The position numbers were made by a program, and so were the translations under genes. Below are positions 11,227 through 63,061 of a stretch of DNA of 64,000 bases, piece by piece. Every line of letters starts with the position of its first letter. Within the stretch, counting starts at the first letter, position 1. Source of the DNA: Methanospirillum hungatei (GTDB taxonomy: Archaea > Halobacteriota > Methanomicrobia > Methanomicrobiales > Methanospirillaceae); assembly GCF_019263745.1 (NCBI RefSeq), contig NZ_CP077107.1, positions 1,984,001-2,048,000 of the forward strand, given 5' to 3'. Under the pieces are notes generated by a model. The model had not been told where the DNA came from. It saw nothing but the letters and a program-made list of their open reading frames with translations, and did not search any database.

Positions 11227-12234
11227 ATGCAGGATCCGGTTAGCGGATTTACATATCCGGAGGAATGGGTCACTCTCTGTACAGACAAGACCTCACGCCT
11301 CCTTGTCAGTCAGGGTCTTGCGGTCCTTACTTCAGATGGAACGATACGAAGGCGTGGATTTACTACCGGGAGTTCCGCAGCTGCTGCAGCCAAGGCTTCA
11401 GTCCTCTCCCTCAAAAAAACCGGTATTACTGAAGTATCAATTCTTACCCCTACGGGTCTTCGTGTTCAGATACCGGTGTCAATAGACAGAGGAACCGGGG
11501 AATGTAGTAAATATTCCGGGGACTATCCGGGAGATGTGACGTCAGGACTGGTCTTTACAGCAGAAGCAACTGTCACCGATTCAGGAATTTCCCTTATCTT
11601 TGGCGAAGGGATCGGCAGATGGAGCCGTGACACTCCCCGGTACAAATCCGGAGATCCAGCAGTCTCTTACATGGCCAGAGATGAGATACAAACCGCAATA
11701 GAGGAGGCTGTGCAGGAAGCCGGGATATCTGGAGTGGCGGTCAGGATTTTTGCACGTCAGGGAAGAGAAGTTGCTGAAAAAACCCTGAATAAGATGGTCG
11801 GAGTTACAGAAGGAATATCCATACTTGGTACAACAGGGTTTGTTGAACCCTGGGATGATCACCTGGAGCAGGCCGCATGTGATCGGGCGGTTCATGCAGA
11901 ACGGGTCGTGCTTACCACTGGCAGGATCGGTATGCGATATGCCCGGATGTTATTCCCAGACCATAAAGTCATCCTTGCTGGCTCCCGACTGGGCACTATT
12001 ATTCCACATCTCACCGGTGAGGTTACCATCTGCGGTCTCCCTGCTCTTGTCTTAAAATATGTAAATCCCGCAATTCTTGAAGGAACCGGGTTTTCAACCG
12101 TTGAAGAATTCATGACAACCGAGCGCTTTCTGCCGGCCATGCAGGCATCTTTTCAGATCTATAAGAGCGCACACTCAAATGTCAGGATTGTCATTGTGAA
12201 CCGGGAAGGAACGATCATCGGAGACTCCGGATGA
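11227..12234 (+). CDS. cbiD: CbiD, cobalt-precorrin-5B C1-methyltransferase
   Basis: A 335-residue CbiD, the C1-methyltransferase unrelated to the other cbi methylases. The signature RRGFTTGSSAAAAAKA sits near residues 40-55, and IPVSIDRGTGECSKYSGDYPGDVTSG style segments follow; GTTGFVEPWDDHLEQA is also typical. The N terminus is about 30 residues longer than in many CbiD proteins. The ATG at 11227 directly follows the cbiC stop; the frame upstream lies inside cbiC. The end overlaps cbiE by 4 nt. Confidence 0.92.
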   Translation: MQDPVSGFTYPEEWVTLCTDKTSRLLVSQGLAVLTSDGTIRRRGFTTGSSAAAAAKASVLSLKKTGITEVSILTPTGLRVQIPVSIDRGTGECSKYSGDYPGDVTSGLVFTAEATVTDSGISLIFGEGIGRWSRDTPRYKSGDPAVSYMARDEIQTAIEEAVQEAGISGVAVRIFARQGREVAEKTLNKMVGVTEGISILGTTGFVEPWDDHLEQAACDRAVHAERVVLTTGRIGMRYARMLFPDHKVILAGSRLGTIIPHLTGEVTICGLPALVLKYVNPAILEGTGFSTVEEFMTTERFLPAMQASFQIYKSAHSNVRIVIVNREGTIIGDSG

Positions 12235-12812
12235 AGATTGTTGGTGTAGGGTGCGGGCCGGGAATGCTGACTGAAGCGGCTATTGTAGCAATTCAAACAG
12301 GTAATCTTATCGTCGGTTCAGAACGCGCTCTAGAAATTGTCAAAAACTACATCTCCAAACATGCAGAAGTCCGGATCATTGAGGATTACAAAGCACTTCG
12401 GATACTTCCTTCCCATGCAATCGTACTTTCAACCGGGGATCCGATGATATCAGGACTTGGTTATCTTGGAGGAGAGATAATTCCCGGAATATCTTCCGTA
12501 CAACTAGGTGCAGCAAAGACAGGTATCTCTTTAACAAACCTGTATCTTGTCACTGCTCATGGAAGAAATCATGACCAGGCAATTGCTGAATGCTGTGAAA
12601 TGACAAGATCTCATAGAAAAACCTGTATTATTGGAGATCCTGCATTTCCAATCGAAAAATTAGCCAAACGACTAATATCTATTGATCCAAATTGTCGGAT
12701 TGTTGTATGTGAAAATCTGGGTTACTCAGATGAGAAGATTTACGAAGGAACAGCTCAAGATCCTCCAGTGATTGAAGGAAAAATGTTTATTCTATTTGTT
12801 ACCGGAACATAG
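12231..12812 (+). CDS. cbiE: CbiE, cobalt-precorrin-7 C5-methyltransferase
   Basis: Tetrapyrrole methyltransferase of 193 residues that methylates C5, the partner activity of CbiT. It starts MKIVGVGCGPGMLTEAA and has LSTGDPMISGLGYLGGEIIPGISS, the CbiE core. It is the last gene of the operon; a long gene-free gap follows. Codon use becomes more AT-rich towards its end. Not present nearby are cbiJ (precorrin-6A reductase), a cobalt chelatase and cbiA. Confidence 0.92.
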   Translation: MKIVGVGCGPGMLTEAAIVAIQTGNLIVGSERALEIVKNYISKHAEVRIIEDYKALRILPSHAIVLSTGDPMISGLGYLGGEIIPGISSVQLGAAKTGISLTNLYLVTAHGRNHDQAIAECCEMTRSHRKTCIIGDPAFPIEKLAKRLISIDPNCRIVVCENLGYSDEKIYEGTAQDPPVIEGKMFILFVTGT

Positions 12813-12846
12813 AATAGAAACATAAACAAATTTTTAAGGAAAGGGG

Positions 12847-13042
12847 ATTGGTCTCTGCTCCCTTGGGGCAGTCAACCAGTGATAATGGGTATCACAGAGA
12901 CCAATGGGGTCTTCATCGAACATTCTCCTCCTACAAGAACCTCATGAATTGATACACACATTTGATGGGGGGTGTGAAATGAGGCATTTCACATGTATGC
13001 GTCAGGTGTTATTCGGATGGGGGGTGTCTCCATGCAGGTTCT
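12847..13042 (+). ncRNA. Candidate structured RNA with two folded domains (undescribed)
   Basis: Domain 1: a perfect 11-bp stem (12847-12857 with 12895-12905, ATTGGTCTCTG / CAGAGACCAAT) encloses two hairpins, 12858-12868 and 12880-12894 (TGATA/TATCA), forming a three-way junction. Domain 2: AGAACCT-CATG (12936-12946) pairs with CATG-C-AGGTTCT (13031-13042) around a perfect 9-bp hairpin, TGTGAAATG AGG CATTTCACA at 12973-12993. The block is much richer in G+C than the AT-rich DNA after it. A TATA-like AAATTTTTAAGG at 12828-12839 could start it at about 12845-12860. I recognise no known RNA family. Either strand could be transcribed; plus is assumed from the TATA-like site. It could also be the leader of the next gene or a repeat element. 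Confidence 0.5.
12964..13027 (+). repeat. Two copies of a 12-nt G-rich direct repeat
   Basis: GATGGGGGGTGT occurs exactly at 12964-12975 and 13016-13027, 52 nt apart start to start. Each carries a run of six G. Both lie in the terminal parts of domain 2 of the folded RNA candidate, on either side of its central hairpin. Confidence 0.85.
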
Positions 13043-13227
13043 AATGCAGAGAGGTAATTATAGATTATCACTGAGATATATTAAATTTAGCCTTTGGGAT
13101 CCTATAAATTGCTGTTTAGAATAATATTTCAGGATATAAATTTAGGCAACCAGATTTAATGCAAATTTAGAATTCATTATGCTGAAAACAAAAAATTATA
13201 AAATATATTGCATGCCTATTAGGATAT
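13043..13227 (+). promoter_or_regulatory. AT-rich promoter region of the transposase-like gene
   Basis: About 185 nt of very AT-rich DNA without a coding frame. ATTATAAAATATAT at 13193-13206 is a good TATA candidate and lies about 25-30 nt before the GTG start at 13228, so the mRNA would have almost no leader, although TAGGAT at 13219-13224 could act as a weak ribosome site. No terminal inverted repeat was seen. Confidence 0.45.
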
Positions 13228-14757: not shown

Positions 14758-14809
14758 TAGGAAGTAGGATTGCTATATTCTAATTAGGCAGCTTTTCTAA
14801 AGTTGAAGA

Positions 14810-14827
14810 CCTAATTGAAAAATTAGG
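14810..14827 (+). terminator. Hairpin after the transposase-like gene
   Basis: CCTAATT and AATTAGG form a perfect 7-bp stem with a GAAA loop, 52 nt after the stop at 14757. There is no clear T run after it. The sequence AATTAGGCAG occurs twice nearby (14781-14790 and 14821-14830). It lies between this gene and the end of the convergent MutY-like gene and could serve as a terminator or RNA-stabilising stem. Confidence 0.4.
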
Positions 14828-14855
14828 CAGGCCATCAAAAACGCATTTAAGTGAC

Positions 14856-62901: not shown

Positions 62902-63061
62902 CTATATACCGCACTTTTCATAGTGCTGGCAGACGCAAATCCGACGTGATTACAATCACTGCCCTCAATCCGGGGCTTTGGGATTGCAGAGAGTTAGCAG
63001 GTTATATTATCTGGCTCTTTTCTCTCTCAGGATTTTGCTCTGTTTACAGGAGGATATAGAA
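62902..63061 (+). promoter_or_regulatory. Promoter and folded leader of rps15
   Basis: TATA-like CTATATAC at 62902-62909 predicts a start near 62930. The leader, about 130 nt, holds two perfect hairpins: GTGAT[TACA]ATCAC (62946-62959) and CAATCC/GGATTG (62966-62971 with 62981-62986). The ribosome site AGGAGG at 63048-63053 is 8 nt before the ATG. Confidence 0.5.

Follow-up and report, generated by a model that had tools for sequence, protein, structure and literature searches.

What lies between the cobalamin operon and a transposase-derived gene in Methanospirillum, and if it is an RNA, which strand encodes it and how might it act? The locus is part of the window, by which we mean the whole 64,000-nucleotide stretch of DNA analysed here, taken from a Methanospirillum genome of 3.39 Mb. 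The initial annotation had placed at this point a structured RNA of roughly 200 nt, and such an RNA is borne out and is conserved, with homologues in three genera. Its comparison across these genera indicates that the locus is very probably a minus-strand gene for a structured non-coding RNA, separate from the neighbouring genes: cbiE runs towards it, and the transposase-derived gene, which encodes a protein of 509 aa, runs away from it (Table 1). On the homologues compared, the element is an archaeal C-loop RNA that is absent from earlier RNA listings, encodes no protein, and is kept in three genera. To our knowledge, folds backed by sequence comparison are available for few small RNAs of archaea.

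Table 1. Features of the locus, in window coordinates
Feature	Position	Strand	Remarks
cbiE-type tetrapyrrole methylase (PF00590)	12231-12812	+	convergent neighbour; final gene of the cobalamin operon
Non-coding RNA gene	12840-13055	-	~215 nt; from near 13055 (5') to near 12840 (3')
P4, 3' terminal hairpin/three-way junction	12847-12905	-	stem of 11-12 bp, then CCCC and U's
P1 3' arm, closing stem	12927-12946	-	14/14 homologues
C-rich motif 2, CACCCCCCAUC	12964-12974	-	unpaired
P3 hairpin, UGUGAAAUG-CCU-CAUUUCACA	12973-12993	-	between both C-rich motifs
C-rich motif 1, CACCCCCCAUC, then CGAAUAACACCUGA	13016-13026	-	unpaired
P1 5' arm, closing stem	13031-13054	-	14/14 homologues
Promoter, GGCTAAATTTAATATATCTC	13073-13092	-	conserved (alignment)
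TATA core, TTTAATAT	13078-13085	-	begins 30 nt upstream of 13055
AATTTAGGCAACC (minus strand GGTTGCCTAAATT)	13139-13151		conserved; intergenic, on the way to the 509-aa gene, outside the RNA
IS1634-transposase-derived gene, 509 aa	13228-14757	+	lost catalytic residues; divergent neighbour, not part of the RNA

Strand, promoter and transcript ends

Both strands allow the stems to be drawn, and a test was needed to tell which one encodes the RNA. For the window copy, the minus-strand fold has a z-score of -4.2, with none of 200 shuffles as good, and the plus-strand fold has a z-score of -2.0, with 10 of 200 shuffles as good. Among six homologues from the three genera, minus-strand folds range from z = -3.6 to -5.7 (0/200 shuffles each), against -1.3 to -2.1 for plus-strand folds in Methanospirillum and the third genus. 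In the second genus, referred to here as g2, both strands fold well (plus-strand z of -3.1 to -3.6) and the minus strand folds better. The contrast in favour of the minus strand is also found in Methanospirillum genomes G010 and G008 and in the third genus. A plus-strand RNA read from the TATA-like box at 12828-12839, either independent or serving the 509-aa gene as its leader, could use the same stems. In Methanospirillum and the third genus, however, the plus-strand fold is close to chance level, and that side is without a conserved promoter. The box itself is unsupported as a promoter because it lies only 8 nt from the stem, a distance too short for an archaeal TATA box, and the sequence past that edge is not conserved. 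The proposed leader fails as well, since the next gene diverges from the RNA and has a TATA-like sequence of its own, some 28-30 nt ahead of the GTG start. Plus-strand encoding is thus barely credible, and the minus strand is favoured.

Archaeal TATA boxes are normally found at about -30 to -23. The alignment shows strong conservation of the minus-strand sequence GGCTAAATTTAATATATCTC (13092-13073) across Methanospirillum, and the 5' end of the RNA corresponds to the conserved ACCTCTCTGCA, at 13055, which is 30 nt downstream from the start of the TATA core. Counted from the printed sequences, all four homologues measured (the window copy, L035, L036, and L059, from three genera) have a TATA-like box that starts 29-34 nt ahead of their conserved 5' end, and in g2 the DNA around this box has otherwise diverged. 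At the other end, the strong hairpin P4 is followed by CCCCUUU(U) at 12840-12846, and conservation stops beyond it. Both ends (13055 and 12840) are placed from sequence. A small minus-strand protein beginning MFDEDPIG... after GGAGGAGA was considered and rejected: its frame is broken at different points between species, and its start is missing in the third genus and g2.

Fold and conservation

The stems of the initial annotation are all present. ATTGGTCTCTG (12847-12857) pairs with CAGAGACCAAT (12895-12905) over 11 bp, a long-range stem with a single bulge joins AGAACCT-CATG (12936-12946) to CATGCAGGTTCT (13031-13042), and TGTGAAATG and CATTTCACA form the 9-bp hairpin at 12973-12993. The long-range stem extends further outward, with CCTCCTACA (12927-12935) pairing with TGCAGAGAGG (13045-13054). 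The two domains described there correspond to two parts of one RNA, a 5' domain (the closing stem P1 and its core) and a 3' terminal hairpin or junction (P4).

The energy of P1 runs from -17 to -31.5 kcal/mol across 14 homologues, and its distal part is lineage-specific in sequence but remains paired: AGAACC/GGUUCU in the window, ACAAC/GUUGU in G010, CUACAACAUUG/CAAUGUUGUAG in L035, CUACGAUAUUG/CAAUGUCGUAG in L036, and CUGCAACAG/CUGUUGUAG in L059. P3 is shorter outside Methanospirillum, with GUGAA/UUCAC in g2 and UGUGA/UCACA in the third genus. For the stems, 98.6-100% of alignment cells are paired (100% in P4), compared to about 30-56% in slid controls. Counted by column, P1/P2 and P4 each have two pairs that are changed on both sides. 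Column-wise covariation is modest, and RNAalifold by itself credits little of it, since most positions do not vary and the changeable distal P1 cannot be aligned column by column. Covariation of the stems had been named beforehand as one of the tests on which the element could fall, and it is present in P1 and P4, as comparative pair counts over a few divergent homologues rather than as a formal R-scape test. We hold the P1/P3/P4 fold with good confidence.

The most conserved letters of the RNA are unpaired and include two ACCCCCCAUC segments. The core around the short hairpin reads ACCCCCCAUCC-RAAUAACACCUGACGCAUACA and ACCCCCCAUCAAA. Motif 1 is near-invariant in Methanospirillum and g2, and has C5 in the third genus. 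When six homologues are folded, the mean unpaired probability of its C-run is 0.58-1.00, and that of motif 2 is 0.83-1.00. Identity between RNA copies is 92-98% among closer species and 82-85% to more distant ones, and the neighbouring cbiE protein is less conserved, at 64-69% and 52-56%, respectively.

Distribution and genomic context

A DNA search finds the RNA in 11 of the 12 Methanospirillum genomes, with one copy in each; the twelfth genome is 67% complete. It is also found in two genomes of g2, apparently a genus of the Ca. Methanofilum type, and the exact core pattern retrieves from the genome collection only Methanospirillum, Methanomicrobiales, and Euryarchaeota records, including Ca. 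Methanofilum arcanum. Covariance model R1, run over 232 genomes of the order, adds one genome from a third genus (g7, genome G017; E 1.3e-5), and a single-gene tree of a CbiO-type protein groups this genus with Methanospirillum (96/95), the placement of g2 and G004 in that tree being confounded by paralogues. The refined model R2, which includes the G017 sequence, was run on 38 genomes of 17 genera and is convincing in three genera only; it also gives a 22-bit match in G043. The mobile repeat that had also been considered is rejected, given one copy per genome and no match in phage or plasmid collections.

The absence of a known family, also claimed at the outset, holds: the covariance models of Rfam 15, among them those for 6C, RNase P, SRP, snoRNAs, and riboswitches, return nothing at the gathering threshold in the region, and a search of 4227 families on both strands, with E up to 10, gives only chance-level matches far below thresholds. 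Searches of open-licence papers turned up no account of an RNA of this kind, either for Methanospirillum or for Methanomicrobiales. Elsewhere in the window, positions 62910-62987 of the plus strand hold an ordinary member of Rfam RF03137, the S15-Methanomicrobia ribosomal protein leader.

In G017, the arrangement recurs, with cbiE convergent and the 509-aa orthologue divergent, whereas in g2 the RNA lies behind a TPR-protein gene, with the 509-aa orthologue on another contig. As the neighbours differ, the RNA is without a fixed co-directional partner gene. Its position in Methanospirillum and G017, 28 nt past the cbiE stop codon and convergent, would suit a cis element that regulates or terminates the cbiE transcript, or a by-product of that transcript. 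However, the g2 copy is not beside cbiE, and with filters off no copy was found in 18 cbiE flanks from other genera; moreover, the RNA has its own conserved promoter, and its most conserved letters are far from cbiE. A cis role is thus very improbable, and the RNA probably acts in trans.

The divergent transposase-derived gene

The 509-aa gene is orthologous across Methanospirillum and is found in G017 and g2. In the Methanospirillum proteins, the second Asp motif, DRG, has become GKN or GRE, and in the window copy the first Asp is missing; the protein is a candidate domesticated transposase. The TTTAGGCAACC motif in the intergenic region resembles the TTAGGCA that precedes related transposase genes by about 100 nt. 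Motifs of the TTAGGCA type are seen on both sides of the 509-aa gene, at 13139-13151 and at about 14780-14835, and they are possibly remnants of transposon ends reused as an operator.

The RNA and the 509-aa protein could form a local regulatory pair, in which the protein would bind either the intergenic TTAGGCAACC motif or the RNA itself. The two genes are adjacent and divergent in Methanospirillum and G017, they co-occur in the same three genera, and a conserved motif lies between them. Nevertheless, they are on different contigs in g2, the motif travels with the 509-aa gene and not with the RNA, and co-occurrence may reflect mere shared descent. Beside other IS1634-like genes, no copy of the RNA was found except the known one in G017. 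Such a partnership is improbable.

A second RNA with the same loop

A search with the complement of the C-rich motif uncovered a second, previously undescribed structured RNA in Methanospirillum (G000:C1:1826504-1826686, minus strand; L153, L289), intergenic and downstream from a gene for an XRE-type regulator. It has orthologues (L184, L200, L273, L276, L279, and L290-L297) and is found in 9 of the 12 Methanospirillum genomes; it was not convincingly found in other genera, and it has no match in Rfam. Besides the loop ACCCCCCAUCCAGCACUCCCCGCA, the RNA contains other C-rich segments and a hairpin resembling a terminator, and the stem closing its loop has a very different yet complementary sequence in G010 and G004. 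It resembles the first RNA in having the same CCCCCCAUCC in a loop, its own conserved TATA-like promoter block, and a terminator-like hairpin, but is otherwise unrelated to it in sequence and fold. The loop common to both RNAs suggests a common partner.

Possible mode of action

Two bacterial RNAs invite comparison. The 115-nt sX13 of Xanthomonas is strongly structured, its functional part consists of three apical C-rich loops, and it represses mRNAs with G-rich motifs near their translation starts (PMC3771888). The 6C RNA of Actinomycetales is about 100 nt long and has two stem-loops, each with a six-C loop (PMC4046766). Like sX13, the Methanospirillum RNA keeps C-rich segments unpaired within a strongly structured molecule; targets are established for sX13 but hypothetical here, and the tests made detect no sequence relation between the two. 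It shares with 6C RNA its small size, its stand-alone state, and two C-runs of about six nucleotides that stay unpaired. It was nevertheless rejected as a 6C family member: its C6 runs are unpaired but are not in two separate stem-loops as in 6C RNA, both lying in the core of a single closing stem and being followed by AUC.

The best explanation of the whole, which we put forward tentatively, is a stand-alone minus-strand RNA gene whose product regulates in trans via its C-rich loops. The archaeal promoter, with its TATA-like box starting at about -30, would drive synthesis of a ~215-nt transcript. This RNA would fold so that the long P1 closes the core and keeps the two ACCCCCCAUC segments and the AAUAACACCUGA strand unpaired, and it would end in a strong hairpin and U's. 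The C-rich loops may then pair in trans with G-rich stretches in mRNAs, possibly G-rich ribosome-binding sites, and this pairing would lower translation of the target mRNAs, as with the bacterial sRNAs that have C-rich loops. The conservation of the gene, its strand, its fold, and the unpaired state of its C-rich segments come from sequence comparison, while transcription and action in trans are what we infer.

In the searches for targets, GATGGGGGG is commoner than its reversed control, a poor control as it contains a stop codon, and the sites are mostly in coding sequence. At gene starts, perfect complements of the motif were not found, and GGGGGGTG...ATG hardly ever marks a genuine start. 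In a 464-kb sample, GGGGTG occurs in 8 of 346 upstream regions versus 0 internal ones when starts are picked by Shine-Dalgarno match, and 4 times versus 0.9 expected when starts are picked without it. Antisense action therefore leads only tentatively, with protein binding or sequestration close behind. Taken by itself, antisense pairing through the C-rich loops is plausible but falls somewhat short of being probable.

The ACCCCCCAUC repeats could instead be binding sites for an RNA-binding protein, for which both C-loop RNAs would serve as a scaffold or sponge. CsrB and RsmZ sequester protein through repeated GGA motifs, and the likeness to them is that of a short motif repeated in unpaired regions and common to more than one RNA; the difference is that GGA is present there in many copies, and ACCCCCCAUC here in two to three. 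This reading gains from the repetition of the motif within the RNA and its presence in an unrelated second one, from a motif sequence that is fixed while the surrounding stems vary, and from the lack of perfect complementary targets at gene starts. On the other hand, the C-rich loops of known bacterial RNAs base-pair (PMC3771888), and the target tests leave room for short seeds of 4-6 nt. Protein binding is accordingly possible but doubtful, and antisense pairing is retained as the leading reading.

At a larger scale, Methanospirillum might possess an RNA network that is new to archaea, in which at least two unrelated RNAs with the same ACCCCCCAUCC loop would hit common G-rich mRNAs or titrate one RNA-binding protein, as an independent archaeal counterpart of CsrB or of 6C/sX13. 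We consider this rather unlikely. If archaea do use C-rich loops as bacteria do, the same regulatory solution would have arisen independently. With its defined strand, promoter, approximate ends, working covariance model, and shared loop motif, the RNA allows experiments on expression, targets, and protein partners to be designed directly.

Complements of the motif also occur in other non-coding elements. In G006, all four genomic CCCCCCATCC sites fall in such elements. Pairs of related non-coding repeats, L145 and L146 in G000 (G000:C1:625601 and 629725) and L274 and L275 in G006 (G006:C33), contain CCGGATGGGGGGGC, which matches motif 1 as a perfect complement over 11 nt, and lie near genes of the nucleotidyltransferase/HEPN type. 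The L145/L146 repeats carry CCCCCCATCC but were set aside as candidates: they were seen in just two of the inspected genomes, G000 and G006, and are likely transcribed from the opposite strand. The two pairs could be unrelated repeats, or else targets or antagonists of the C-loop RNA.
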